Positions 46,854-50,377 of a stretch of 64,000 bases of DNA are shown here, in pieces. The DNA is taken from the NCBI RefSeq assembly GCF_900112255.1, contig NZ_FOLE01000008.1, positions 124,001 to 188,000 of the forward strand, in the 5' to 3' direction. Each line of letters begins with the position of its first letter. The first letter of the stretch is position 1. The notes under the pieces were generated by a model. The model searched no databases. It saw only the letters and a program-made list of their open reading frames with translations, and was not told where the DNA came from. Source of the DNA: Flexibacter flexilis DSM 6793 (lineage in GTDB: Bacteria; Bacteroidota; Bacteroidia; Cytophagales; Flexibacteraceae). The translations under genes were made by a program, and so were the position numbers.

Positions 46854-47007
46854 TTCCGTTCTGATGCTGCTTTTGGCGGCTTCGTCGGCTCTTTTGGCCA
46901 TCAAAACCCCAAGTAAACGTAATCAATATTTTCTTTTTGCAAGCGTAAGTAGTGCGTTAGCTTTGTATTTTATCTACTTGGCTTACACAACATATCGTAT
47001 GCTTTAA
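46789..47007 (+). CDS. small two-helix membrane protein
   Basis: A 72-residue ORF predicted to span the membrane twice (about residues 13-37, WFLIGLIFSVLMLLLAASSALLA, and 47-66, LFASVSSALALYFIYLAYTT), with a short basic loop KTPSKRN that would face the cytosol. No family is recognised. Its start codon and first codons lie in the loop of a terminator-like inverted repeat that probably ends the hemA transcript, so the ORF may be translated only from readthrough RNA, or may not be a gene. Composition is protein-like. Confidence 0.5.
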   Translation: MQLMLLLTANTSFTWFLIGLIFSVLMLLLAASSALLAIKTPSKRNQYFLFASVSSALALYFIYLAYTTYRML

Positions 47008-47150
47008 TGTAATTTTAATAGTATTTATCTTATATAACGAAACAATATTTCTGTATTAAATTTGATTTTTGTAGAATTTTTACAATTTATATACAAATAC
47101 AATTTAATATTTTGGTTGTTTTGGTTACTTTCGTGGAAATTTAACAGCCA

Positions 47151-48125
47151 ATGGAAGCCATTATATTAGAAAAGGAAACGTATCTACCCGCCGTCGTTTT
47201 AGATGCTCAAAACGAACGCTTTGAATTTATGGGCAAATCTATTCCCGAAAATGCTTCCGAATTTTTTGCCCCTATTCTTGTGTGGATAGATAATTACATA
47301 GTTATTCCCAATGAAGAGACGAATGTAAAATTTCATTTGGAATACTTTAATACCAGCACGTCCAAGTATTTACTGGAAATCATGCGTAAGCTGGAAAAAT
47401 TGTATCAAAACACAGACAAAGCAGTAATGATTAGCTGGTTTGTGGAAGATGGCGATACGGATGTGGAAGAAGCGGGTTTGGATTATAAAGCTATTCTGAA
47501 AGTTCCGTTTGAAGTAATTACGGTTGATGCAGACGGTAGCATAGTGAATGTAATAGAATCTACGACACCTCCCCGAAATGGCGTAACAGCGAATACGGCA
47601 AGGCCATCGGAATCTATTCCGCAAAATATTCGGGATTTGGCCAAAGAGCTACTCAATATGGGCGACGATTTGCCGCCGCTCGTGCCAGCCACAGTACATC
47701 ATGCCGAAACAGTGGCCAATGATACCGCCGCCGCCGATTTGGACGTAGTAACGTCTATTTCGGACAGGTTGCAGAAAAAACTGAATCAGGCTAACGAAAC
47801 GTTGCAACAGCAAGCCGAAGAAATTCGACAAATCAATCAAGATTTGAACTTCAAAAACAAAGAACTACAAGAAACGGTGGACGCGCTGACCAAAGCACGT
47901 GCAGGCCGCAGGGCTGCTACCATTGTGTTATTTATTGCCGTGGGGCTTTTCATTGTGTCGGAGGCCATCGAATGGGTAATCGAGAACATGACCCAAAACG
48001 TGTTGGCAGTATATTGGGTGATTTTGATCAAACTCCTCATTGCGCTTTTGCTTAAACCAATAGAATCTGTATTGGAAACCAATATTTTACAACACAATGC
48101 CAAAGCATCCGTACAAGAAGACTAA
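47151..48125 (+). CDS. SiaC/DUF1987-like protein with coiled coil and two membrane helices
   Basis: The N-terminal ~125 residues match DUF1987/SiaC, the small phosphoprotein switched by the SiaA phosphatase and SiaB kinase: FEFMGKSIPENASEFFAPILVWIDNYI, then FHLEYFNTSTSKYLLEI, where T68-S71 surround the SiaC phosphosite region, and ISWFVEDGDTDVEEAGLDYKAI. A linker of about 75 residues follows, then a coiled coil (about 205-252, with many Gln, Leu and Lys) and two helices near 256-276 and 285-306. SiaC proteins are normally about 125 residues and soluble, so this is a membrane-anchored fusion. No SiaA or SiaB homologue is adjacent. Confidence 0.78.
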   Translation: MEAIILEKETYLPAVVLDAQNERFEFMGKSIPENASEFFAPILVWIDNYIVIPNEETNVKFHLEYFNTSTSKYLLEIMRKLEKLYQNTDKAVMISWFVEDGDTDVEEAGLDYKAILKVPFEVITVDADGSIVNVIESTTPPRNGVTANTARPSESIPQNIRDLAKELLNMGDDLPPLVPATVHHAETVANDTAAADLDVVTSISDRLQKKLNQANETLQQQAEEIRQINQDLNFKNKELQETVDALTKARAGRRAATIVLFIAVGLFIVSEAIEWVIENMTQNVLAVYWVILIKLLIALLLKPIESVLETNILQHNAKASVQED

Positions 48126-48179
48126 TTTTTGTATGATAAAAAATTTGCTTTTGTGATAATAATCAATCATCTTGCTTAC

Positions 48180-48263
48180 ATGAGAAACAACAAGACTACA
48201 TATTACTGCTATTATTACACTTGCGGCCAAAAGCTCGGAAAGTGCGATACGGTGTACGTGTAG
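48180..48263 (+). CDS. Tyr-rich leader peptide upstream of phhA
   Basis: A 27-codon ORF starting at ATG 48180 and ending at TAG 48263. Six codons are Tyr: two in tandem (48201-48206), three in tandem (48210-48218) and one at 48255-48257. Three Cys also occur (codons 10, 15, 22). It lies directly before a terminator and the gene for phenylalanine hydroxylase, whose product is tyrosine. This is the arrangement of a ribosome-stalling attenuator peptide sensing Tyr-tRNA. An alternative is a small Cys-rich peptide with its own function. The likely promoter is weak: TGCTTTTG at 48146-48153, one mismatch to TAnnTTTG. Confidence 0.7.
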   Translation: MRNNKTTYYCYYYTCGQKLGKCDTVYV

Positions 48264-48345
48264 CGTTTTGATTTTTATTCGACGATACTAAAGATACTAC
48301 CAAAGAGGCCATTTCCGAGCAAGGATTTGGCCTCTTTTCTTTTTG
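48225..48345 (+). promoter_or_regulatory. transcription attenuator with mutually exclusive antiterminator and terminator
   Basis: Segment 48225-48241 (GGCCAAA, A, GCTCGGAAA), inside the leader ORF just after the Tyr run, can pair perfectly with 48312-48332 (TTTCCGAGC, 5 bases, TTTGGCC): 9 + 7 base pairs. That pairing uses GGCC 48329-48332, the 3' arm of the terminator, so the two structures exclude each other. Ribosome stalling at the Tyr codons would leave the antiterminator segment free to pair. Confidence 0.72.
48302..48345 (+). terminator. terminator between the leader ORF and phhA
   Basis: AAAGAGGCC (48302-48310) pairs with GGCCTCTTT (48329-48337) over an 18-base loop with some inner pairing, followed by TCTTTTTG. 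It lies 33 bases before the phhA start codon. Confidence 0.85.
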
Positions 48346-48377
48346 ACATTCAATCATTTAACTATTTCAAAAATCCC

Positions 48378-49130
48378 ATGAATTTATTACAACAACAGTA
48401 CGACGGTTACACGCCCGAAGATTTTGAAGTTTGGCGCATCTTGTTTGAGAGACAAATGAAACGTTTGCCCGCCGCCGCTTCTGCCGAGTACCAAGAATCA
48501 CTCAAACGCATTGGCTTTACGGCAGACCGAATCCCGCATTTCGACGAAGTGAAAGAACGTTTAGCGGATTTTACGGGTTGGTCGTTGGCCGTAGTGCCTG
48601 GCATTGTGCCCAATGACATTTTCTTTAATCTGTTGCTAAACAAGCAGTTCCCCGCTACTACCTGGTTGCGCAAAATGAGCCAATTGGATTATCTGGAAGA
48701 ACCCGATATGTTCCATGACGTATTCGGACACGTGCCTTTGCTTACCAACACCGCATACACGGACTTTTTGCAAGCCGTGAGCCGCATTGCGCTCAAGCAC
48801 TTGGACAGCGAATTGGCGATTGAAGTACTGGGGCGTGTGTATTGGTTTACGGTGGAGTTTGGGCTTATCCGCGAAAACGGCCAATTGCGTATCTATGGCG
48901 CGGGGATTCTCTCCTCTGGCGGCGAAACGGAATATTCACTTTCGGACGTACCGCGTCATTTGCCCTTTGATATTGAGGAGATTATGCGCAGCCCTTACCG
49001 CAAAGACGTTTTCCAAGAAAAATATTTTGTGATAGACAGTTACGAACAACTCTATTTGTCCGTTAGTACTATAGAGCAAGTTTTGGATAAAATGCTCCAA
49101 GAGGAAGCCTTAGAAGCCAAAAGCGAATAA
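48378..49130 (+). CDS. phhA: phenylalanine 4-hydroxylase (aromatic amino acid hydroxylase)
   Basis: Pterin- and iron-dependent monooxygenase that converts phenylalanine to tyrosine. The catalytic domain is complete at 250 residues. The iron ligands are His113 and His118 in EPDMFHDVFGHVPLL and Glu160 in VYWFTVEFGLI. LSSGGETEYSLSD and the DFTGWSLAVVPGIVPNDIFFNLL segment are family-typical. There is no regulatory ACT domain, as in other bacterial forms. The start at 48378 is downstream of the terminator; an in-frame Met at 48327 lies within the terminator loop and is rejected. Expression is probably set by the upstream Tyr-codon attenuator. Confidence 0.94.
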   Translation: MNLLQQQYDGYTPEDFEVWRILFERQMKRLPAAASAEYQESLKRIGFTADRIPHFDEVKERLADFTGWSLAVVPGIVPNDIFFNLLLNKQFPATTWLRKMSQLDYLEEPDMFHDVFGHVPLLTNTAYTDFLQAVSRIALKHLDSELAIEVLGRVYWFTVEFGLIRENGQLRIYGAGILSSGGETEYSLSDVPRHLPFDIEEIMRSPYRKDVFQEKYFVIDSYEQLYLSVSTIEQVLDKMLQEEALEAKSE

Positions 49131-49151
49131 ACGCTTTCCTTTTGAATAAAC

Positions 49152-49208
49152 AAATCGCCCCTACGAAGTTAGTAAAATGGTTAGCTACTAACGGATTAGG
49201 GGCGATTT
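49152..49208. terminator. large bidirectional terminator after phhA
   Basis: AAATCGCCCCTA (49152-49163) pairs perfectly with 49197-49208, and an inner GTTAGTA/TACTAAC stem stacks inside. It separates phhA from the convergent lipoprotein gene. Confidence 0.85.
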
Positions 49209-49216
49209 TGTGTTTA

Positions 49217-50377
49217 TTATTGATTCAAATAATTTGTAATTTCTGCATTAGATTGGTTAGTATGCACTCTAACATCATCTATCAAACGGTCTATTTCTCT
49301 GCGAGATTCATCATCTTCGTATAAGGGTTTAACATTTGATAAATAATTGATGATTATATTCGCTTTGGTGTCATCGTATAATACAGACTCGGCTTGGGGA
49401 TTTCTTACCAAACTTGTAGTCATCCCAAGAACAACATTTTCTATAAAATCAATCGTTTGTACCGCGAAATCATAAGTAATGCGCTCTGATGGTAGTCTGT
49501 CGCTTAACTGATAGTATAAATCTATGTAATGTTGCCCATTGTTTCCATTAGTCAATACATTATCTCGAAAATCATACAGATTTGTTAGTAAATCATCATG
49601 ATTGTTCCCTTCTACATGGACTACATCGTTAATTCTACAAACAGTGTTATCTGGATTTGCACATAGAACTGGAGGCTGAATGAAAAAATAAAATTTACAA
49701 TCCCCAGCAGAGCTCTCACAAGGCCTCTTACAATATTTCACAGGACCTCCTCCAGGAGCCATTGGAGTATTTATTTTATTTAACTCTCTTTTTATAACCC
49801 ATTGCAAATAGTCTCGTTTATTATTACTATTGTTAGGCACGATTACATTTCCCATAAAACCAATAAAAGAATGCATTTTTTTGAAGTTTATGATACCGAT
49901 ATCGTAAATATCATTAGAGGAAATATAATTACTTGATAAGCGGTATTTAGGGTATTCCACTAATTTAGAATTCTTATATGCAAATAGTCTTGTATTTATT
50001 TTATTTTTATTTTTTATATAAAATAAAACACCTAAAAAATTATTATTAGTTAGACTGTCTTGATTTTTTATAAACTTATCCAAATAGATAGAATACATTA
50101 CAATACTATCTTTATTGGGTATTAATTTATTTAAATCAAATCCATCAAACACTAAATTAGTTGTATTCAAATTTTTAATGCCACTTCCATCAAGATATGA
50201 GTAGTTGTATAGTGTATCTACAAATAATCTCAAATTAAGGGTTTTGTTAGGAAATTTTATATTGACAAAACTATAGTTCTCCGACATACAAGAGGTACAA
50301 GAAGTTTCATTTACTTTGTTACAAGATTGTAGTAAAGTAAAGATTGTTACAAAGAGTAATAAACTAATTTTTTTCAT
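49217..50377 (-). CDS. lipoprotein of unknown function
   Basis: A 386-residue exported protein. The N-terminus MKKISLLLFVTIFTLLQSCNK is a lipoprotein signal with lipobox LLQSC at Cys19. Many Cys follow (TSCTSCMSENY and later YCKRPCESSAGDCKFYF), suggesting disulfides. The C-terminal third (about 255-386) is helical and polar. The gene is AT-rich, with Asn, Ile and Lys in excess, unlike the neighbouring phhA, and no family is recognised. It lies downstream of the TPR-CHAT gene on the same strand but is separated from it by a terminator. Possibly horizontally acquired. Confidence 0.65.
   Translation of the reverse strand: MKKISLLLFVTIFTLLQSCNKVNETSCTSCMSENYSFVNIKFPNKTLNLRLFVDTLYNYSYLDGSGIKNLNTTNLVFDGFDLNKLIPNKDSIVMYSIYLDKFIKNQDSLTNNNFLGVLFYIKNKNKINTRLFAYKNSKLVEYPKYRLSSNYISSNDIYDIGIINFKKMHSFIGFMGNVIVPNNSNNKRDYLQWVIKRELNKINTPMAPGGGPVKYCKRPCESSAGDCKFYFFIQPPVLCANPDNTVCRINDVVHVEGNNHDDLLTNLYDFRDNVLTNGNNGQHYIDLYYQLSDRLPSERITYDFAVQTIDFIENVVLGMTTSLVRNPQAESVLYDDTKANIIINYLSNVKPLYEDDESRREIDRLIDDVRVHTNQSNAEITNYLNQ

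Follow-up and report, generated by a model that had tools for sequence, protein, structure and literature searches.

What governs phhA in Flexibacter flexilis DSM 6793, where the gene lies close behind a short reading frame packed with tyrosine codons? The window, that is, the whole stretch of 64,000 nucleotides that was analysed (contig C8, positions 124001-188000), comes from a genome of 4.25 Mb in 48 contigs that is 99.84% complete, and this genome alone represents its genus among the compared genomes. Judging from the sequence, we consider it very likely that phhA is controlled by a ribosome-mediated transcription attenuator sensing charged tRNA-Tyr. The gene is probably switched on only in tyrosine shortage, and related bacteria probably keep the device, in most cases with extra histidine codons where the operon continues with histidine genes.

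The phhA product can be assigned with confidence to phenylalanine 4-monooxygenase (PF00351, E 7.2e-50; TIGR01267, 279.8 bits against a cut-off of 264.75). The gene 3' of it (49217-50377) is on the opposite strand, and phhA, without a same-strand partner downstream, appears to be monocistronic. The leader ORF translates as MRNNKTTYYCYYYTCGQKLGKCDTVYV, 27 residues followed by a stop, and its Tyr codons begin at 48201, 48204, 48210, 48213 and 48216, with a sixth at 48255; the run thus spells the amino acid made by phhA, as in an attenuator, and an intrinsic terminator stands between the leader ORF and the gene (Table 1). On the 5' side, the same-strand neighbour (47151-48125) encodes a SiaC-domain protein (PF09345) with a C-terminal hydrophobic stretch predicted by eye, and its 3' end is about 55 bases upstream of the leader ORF.

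Table 1. Features of the phhA leader region, numbered from the first base of the window.
Feature	Position	Strand	Basis and remarks
TTTG, candidate -33 promoter element	48144-48147	+	position relative to leader ATG common to many relatives by eye; weak alone
TCATCTTG, candidate -7 element (consensus TAnnTTTG)	48167-48174	+	5 bases before leader ATG; analogy with relatives only
Leader ORF, 27 codons + stop	48180-48263	+	ORF translation; similar Tyr-run ORFs before phhA of relatives
Regulatory Tyr codons, five in six	48201-48218	+	sequence and translation; sixth Tyr codon at 48255-48257
Candidate protector hairpin (segments 1 + 2)	48196-48263	+	fold -17.6 kcal/mol; 10 of 200 shuffles pair equally well
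Antiterminator 5' strand, GGCCAAA + GCTCGGAAA	48225-48241	+	9 + 7 bp; own-partner duplex -23.0 kcal/mol, z -3.1
Antiterminator 3' strand (48312-48320 + 48326-48332)	48312-48332	+	overlaps terminator loop and 3' arm
Intrinsic terminator hairpin	48302-48337	+	-22.0 kcal/mol; compensatory change, on both sides, in 8 of 10 consensus pairs of 26 aligned leaders
U-tract TTTTCTTTTT	48335-48344	+	sequence
phhA, phenylalanine 4-monooxygenase	48378-49130	+	profile matches; appears monocistronic

The original prediction had read from this DNA a leader ORF with six Tyr codons, a terminator between it and a gene taken to be phhA, and a 9 + 7 bp alternative pairing. Sequence and translation confirm the ORF, the profile matches bear out the gene, the terminator is there as a stem with its U-tract, and the pairing is present exactly as described. 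Its core is the 9 bp helix between GCTCGGAAA (48233-48241) and TTTCCGAGC (48312-48320), and the 7 bp extension, GGCCAAA (48225-48231) with TTTGGCC (48326-48332), invades the 3' arm of the terminator. A convincing third, anti-antiterminator segment had been missed at that time; a candidate can now be proposed, a hairpin with the Tyr codons in its 5' arm and a 3' arm that ends at the leader stop codon, which does not win at equilibrium when the window is folded. Taken as a whole, the region 48146-48378 gave a more stable fold than its shuffled versions in 199 of 200 cases (z -2.78).

From these segments the following course of events would be expected. Transcription would start near the leader ATG. 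With ample tyrosine, the ribosome would pass the Tyr codons, and either the protector hairpin or the ribosome itself would occupy the antiterminator strand; the terminator would form and transcription would halt before phhA. When charged Tyr-tRNA is scarce, the ribosome would stall at the five-codon run and block the protector hairpin, the two antiterminator strands would pair while the terminator is still incomplete, and the polymerase would continue into phhA, whose product would make tyrosine from phenylalanine. For the window, we infer leader translation, stalling, timing and the tyrosine response.

The relatives of phhA were collected as the best 80 of 579 loci confirmed in named genomes, together with the best 29 further loci and 80 hand-chosen upstream regions (about 1-2 per genus) from a sample of the order, in which 265 of 390 genomes carry the gene. 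Once copies had been removed, there were 181 distinct upstream regions of at most 450 bases each. At least five Tyr codons in 10 were found on the coding strand of 18 regions, compared to 2 on the reverse strand, and at least four in 10 on 35 and 16, respectively. A terminator 25-170 bases past the run was present in all 18 regions with at least five Tyr codons, and in 11/16 with four, 9/31 with three and 30/116 with one or two, respectively. The occurrence of a Tyr run and a terminator before phhA exceeds chance. The most extreme Tyr-rich leaders read MNFSAQNYYYYYYYREASCFGAGTGMRSL (L094) and MKTMNNYYYYYYYRMMSFGMGVVCS (L189). The trait is patchy, 147 of the 181 regions having fewer than four Tyr codons in a run, and within the window's own family phhA was found in only 2 of 11 genomes, the sole relative there with the gene (G007/L003, 54% identity) having neither a Tyr run nor a match to our model R1. 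An initial screen for ATG-initiated ORFs with at least four Tyr in 12 residues was abandoned for its background (5/181 reverse-strand and 35/905 shuffled regions passed); the five-in-10 cut is cleaner. The original prediction had asked for an alignment with relatives and named a lack of conservation of the Tyr run or of the alternative pairing as evidence against itself. Both recurred across families of the order, the Tyr-run ORFs being accompanied by a covarying terminator and a partner-specific antiterminator.

The pairing segments themselves are conserved by compensation. In the relatives, a UUCGGAA-like segment between the Tyr run and the stop pairs with the 5' arm and loop of the terminator, and changed yet matching partners can be seen by eye (CCGUUUUGGA/UCCAAAACGG in L185, CUCUUGGAG/CUCCAAGAG in L190, GGAUUAGG/CCUAAUCC in L049 and L077). 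The antiterminator pairing of 27 Tyr leaders with their own terminators averaged -19.7 kcal/mol (z -3.24), compared to -14.6 kcal/mol (z -1.35) with foreign ones, and none of 10,000 partner permutations matched the former. For the leaders with both Tyr and His codons, no such signal was seen with a segment ending at the leader stop, and one appeared (3/5000) once the segment was extended past it, an extension chosen after the data had been seen. An antiterminator that excludes the terminator and is conserved by compensation is therefore found in the 27 Tyr leaders, and more weakly in the Tyr/His group. Pairing of the Tyr codons with the segment before the stop was matched by at most 10 of 200 shuffles in 15 of 26 leaders (L168 could not be scored). 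Trp attenuators are built on a plan in which segments pair as 1:2, 2:3 and 3:4, and by analogy this would also be the layout of the Tyr leaders. Three loci were left out of the antiterminator, promoter and folding analyses, namely L131 (a weak, short leader), L058 (a near copy of L049) and L138 (a near copy of L137), and L168 was left out of the folding with a ribosome in place.

In that folding, the stalled state was modelled by placing the ribosome on the second of the regulatory codons, with the 3' arm of the terminator still unmade. For 25 Tyr leaders, the expected number of antiterminator pairs before the 3' arm was 11.9 with a stalled ribosome, 6.2 with none and 2.1 with the ribosome past the stop, a figure that takes all RNA upstream of the ribosome as unavailable, and stalling raised the number in 21 of them. 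The same numbers for 29 Tyr/His leaders were 12.1, 3.2 and 5.4, with a rise in 28. In the window, the stalled and ribosome-free states were the same (13.2 pairs each) and only passage to the stop changed the antiterminator (2.4 pairs). Because the window antiterminator is favoured with and without a ribosome alike, the protector hairpin would be weak there. In the finished RNA the terminator of the window wins at equilibrium despite a stalled ribosome (P 0.95), and it dominates in 41 of the 47 listed loci, with P below 0.5 in just 6 of 47; antitermination must therefore be kinetic. The comparison of both folds that was suggested with the original prediction came out in two parts for the window: the antiterminator is favoured before the 3' arm has been made, and the terminator wins in the finished RNA, where no switch is seen at equilibrium.

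Where the leader transcripts begin was judged from promoter boxes. The Bacteroidota promoter consensus is given as TTTG at -33 and TAnnTTTG at -7 in the available text of PMC7366714. Within 32 bases upstream of 53 leaders (a set with many close relatives; L066 and L168 are without a start codon found), the best TAnnTTTG was perfect in 17 (2.6% of controls) and matched at least 5/6 fixed positions in 44 (about 22% of controls), and 26 of the latter had their box end 4-6 bases before the start codon. The box of the window matches 4/6 fixed positions, as do 48% of control stretches, which is no better than chance. In the promoter passages of PMC9723704, the box sits at -12 to -5, and 5.5% leaderless mRNAs were counted. 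That position, taken with the spacing between box and start codon, would give the leaders 5' UTRs of about 0-2 bases, and we infer that they are read from nearly leaderless transcripts.

The codons of the leader change with the genes that follow. At least two His codons were found in the leaders of 45/48 loci with a HisH homologue downstream of phhA on the same strand, and in 1/17 loci without one (L288); in this count L131 was left out, and L168, whose leader is truncated because upstream regions were limited to 450 bases, was scored as without His. Typical Tyr/His leaders contain AYHHHYYHL, TYHYHYYH, YYSHYYHFF or RTYVHHSYH. The exceptions with hisH are G033/L137 and G048/L138, which have no His codon, and L066, which has one in the counted stretch. 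In the former two, the leader is Tyr-only despite hisH, and about 240 bases separate the terminator from phhA. Selection of the Tyr/His group itself required five Tyr + His codons; in the unbiased subset of leaders with at least four Tyr, His codons were present in 16/19 with hisH vs 1/16 without (p 4e-6), and after collapsing by hand to genera in 11/13 vs 1/14 (p 6.9e-5). Two genera hold both states, g10 (G062 vs G014) and g118 (G368 vs G309), with His codons where hisH is present and none or one where it is not. On a phhA tree of 64 rows, made by a quick method without L058 and with several long branches including that of the window, His codons and hisH agree in 60/64 and hisH changes 6 times. 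It contains 3 independent pairs on supported branches (mean 2.4 the same way, 0.1 opposite), which are too few for significance. In the window, a Tyr-only leader precedes a phhA that lacks a same-strand partner downstream, as the rule expects. It is an evenly poised proposition that these leaders form one codon-programmed, nearly leaderless attenuator family of Bacteroidota whose alphabet is re-tuned with the operon, Tyr only where phhA stands alone or is followed by aminotransferase and tyrA, and Tyr with His where hisH follows, such that one leader reports two unrelated amino acids. The paired gain or loss of His codons and hisH provides a natural experiment on codon-specific sensing.

A simpler reading would be that the hairpin just ends the SiaC-domain gene, that phhA has a promoter downstream of the terminator and that the Tyr run is due to chance. 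The terminator does lie 3' of that gene on the same strand, and at other sites of the genome the model picks up plain terminators. This reading is nevertheless highly unlikely, because the combination of a Tyr run, a terminator and phhA is a recurrent one (18/18), the antiterminator pairing is specific to its partner and His codons appear with hisH. The latter change, which follows the amino acids that the operon produces, also bears on whether the nascent peptide, rather than a shortage of Tyr-tRNA, arrests the ribosome, with free tyrosine as a conceivable effector. Arrest peptides are known, TnaC being one (PMC8429421, in its available text), and the Algoriphagus-type sequence NPTPRTY(V/I)HHS is conserved at the amino acid level. 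Outside that group, however, the peptides share little except runs of Tyr and His, and where codons further downstream are conserved they lie in segments that base-pair, so that we regard peptide arrest as very improbable indeed.

A terminator controlled by a protein or ligand (riboswitch, T-box or RNA-binding protein), with an incidental Tyr ORF, is scarcely probable at all. Terminator/antiterminator switches of such kinds exist, and in equilibrium folds the switch of the window is independent of P1. However, no Rfam family reached its gathering score over 47000-49500, where two weak matches lay on the minus strand and not in the leader, or in the loci of 10 relatives, where 7 sub-threshold matches were found, the best of a leader type being Trp_leader in L190 (27.4 bits vs 41). 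An assignment of the window's leader region and these 10 loci to a known Rfam leader or T-box family was rejected on this basis. The attenuator sensing charged tRNA-Tyr remains our preferred explanation.

Such an attenuator would suit an enzyme that supplies tyrosine. The window's genome has a prephenate dehydratase (E 3.7e-56) and no match to TyrA (PF02153) in a profile search whose control matched 13/14 genomes; the search was run on a 99.84% complete assembly in 48 contigs, and a missed or divergent TyrA is possible. As phenylalanine is made and TyrA was not detected, tyrosine would most simply come from phenylalanine through PhhA, which is probably biosynthetic here and likely the only tyrosine-forming enzyme. 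The hydroxylase had originally been described as catabolic-type, and we amend this to probably biosynthetic in view of the prephenate dehydratase, the absence of TyrA and PF04209 matches and the operon of G252, in which the Tyr leader is followed by phhA, an aminotransferase (placed only as such) and prephenate dehydrogenase (TyrA over the cut-off). Homogentisate dioxygenase (HgmA, PF04209) had no match in 77 genomes including that of the window, a result that we use lightly because the control matched just 1/14 genomes. Neither prephenate dehydratase nor TyrA was matched by profile in two Tyr-leader genomes, G305 and G245. Among 15 Tyr-leader genomes, TyrA was over the cut-off in 7, weak in 1 and without a match in 7, compared to 38/62 over the cut-off among the others; absence of TyrA does not track the Tyr leader. 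For Echinicola vietnamensis, the available text of PMC7311316 reports an important role of PAH in defined media; the fitness data indicate that the enzyme makes tyrosine, and tyrosine synthesis through PAH was proposed there. Four Echinicola loci (L049, L058, L075 and L077) carry leaders of this type.

Ribosome-mediated attenuators of the trp/his/phe type are represented in Escherichia coli by trpL, hisL and pheL. The leader of the window is like them in having a leader ORF with regulatory codons, an antiterminator and a terminator, besides a candidate protector, and a target that makes the sensed amino acid. Unlike them, it has Tyr codons and PhhA as its target, occurs in Bacteroidota, has a 5' UTR that is likely very short or absent, and uses an antiterminator that takes the loop and 3' arm of the terminator. 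Bacteroid-trp RNA (RF01692, Weinberg 2010, PMC2864571) is likewise a candidate RNA of Bacteroidetes, linked to trp by its name in the available text, and has no match in the window region or the 10 relatives' loci. The text of PMC9723704 that we draw on reports 'strong clues' for leader-peptide attenuation before amino-acid operons in Flavobacterium psychrophilum, and Table 7 of PMC1173090 predicts an attenuator before the pheA operon of Bacteroides thetaiotaomicron. Both concern amino-acid biosynthesis operons in the same phylum as the window, and in view of the former the mechanism is not new there. In the available text of both papers no Tyr leader of phhA is named, and that of the former contains the word 'phenylalanine' 0 times. 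The ilvBNC leader of Corynebacterium glutamicum, cited in PMC10272879, is likewise an attenuator, with a leader peptide that is reported to lack a ribosome binding site, but concerns branched-chain amino acids in Actinobacteria. Searches of the open-access literature, within their top matches, found neither a Tyr-codon leader nor an attenuator of phhA, and no open-access paper combining 'attenuation', 'leader peptide', 'tyrosine' and 'phhA'. The original prediction had held that Tyr-leader attenuation of an aromatic hydroxylase is not a textbook system, and this agrees with the literature searched, where control of PhhA by Tyr codons was not found. A tyrosine-specific attenuator of phhA would thus be added to a known trp-like mechanism and would give a regulatory reason to view bacterial phenylalanine hydroxylase as biosynthetic. 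In the same literature, little is said about amino-acid regulation in Cytophagales-type bacteria.

Covariance models were also searched against whole genomes, with scores that for both R1 and R2 lean on the terminator. With the window excluded from its making, model R2 scored highest within the 64 kb at 48195-48342 (31.8 bits, E 0.0011), and genome-wide this site ranked third (E 0.074), behind two matches resembling ordinary terminators. At E 0.01, model R1 had matches in 130 of the 390 genomes searched in the order; each of its 22 best-scoring matches, checked by hand, is upstream of phhA and no more than about 320 bases from it, 9 being training sequences, 2 near copies and 11 new. Across the class, 37/395 genomes had model matches at E 0.001. 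Among 9 further loci read in other families of the same class, with genes named by eye, 4 had Tyr-containing leaders before phhA-like genes and 5 preceded aspartokinase-like genes, 4 of the latter with a Thr/Ile-rich ORF (L265, L266, L271 and L273, e.g. MTINNTTIITIITTG).

Leaders with runs of His, Phe/Tyr, Tyr and Thr/Ile codons suggest that attenuation of this kind is widely used by Cytophagales-type bacteria. The R1 matches that score below the 22 best include the His leaders of L225 and L247, the Phe/Tyr leaders of L227 and others, and the Tyr leaders of L234, L246 and L248. The His-run leaders THHHHHLIS before hisH (TIGR01855) in L225 (G378:C27) and YHHHHHHFN before hisG (TIGR00070) in L247 (G285:C7) are candidate His attenuators, as are the His-run peptides of L228, L229, L231, L232 and L260, where the downstream genes were named by eye except that of L231. 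Mixed Phe/Tyr leaders (e.g. YFTFFYFYFR) stand before DAHP-synthase-like genes in L227, L236-L242, L254, L257 and L258, of which L227 was profile-scanned, with matches under the curated cut-offs. Tyr leaders (TYRTYYYYYG, TYRAYYYYALQA) precede an aminotransferase in L234, L246 and L248, with TyrA further downstream in G319 and G378, and in L253 (G234:C8) Leu or Phe/Tyr-run ORFs precede a prephenate dehydratase (NCBIfam 188.5 bits, cut-off 219). In the Algoriphagus-type loci (e.g. L011, L034 and L063), the leader peptide MNPTPRTY(V/I)HHS is highly conserved, sometimes with a GTG start, and this conservation beyond the Tyr and His codons could reflect base pairing or a function of the nascent peptide.
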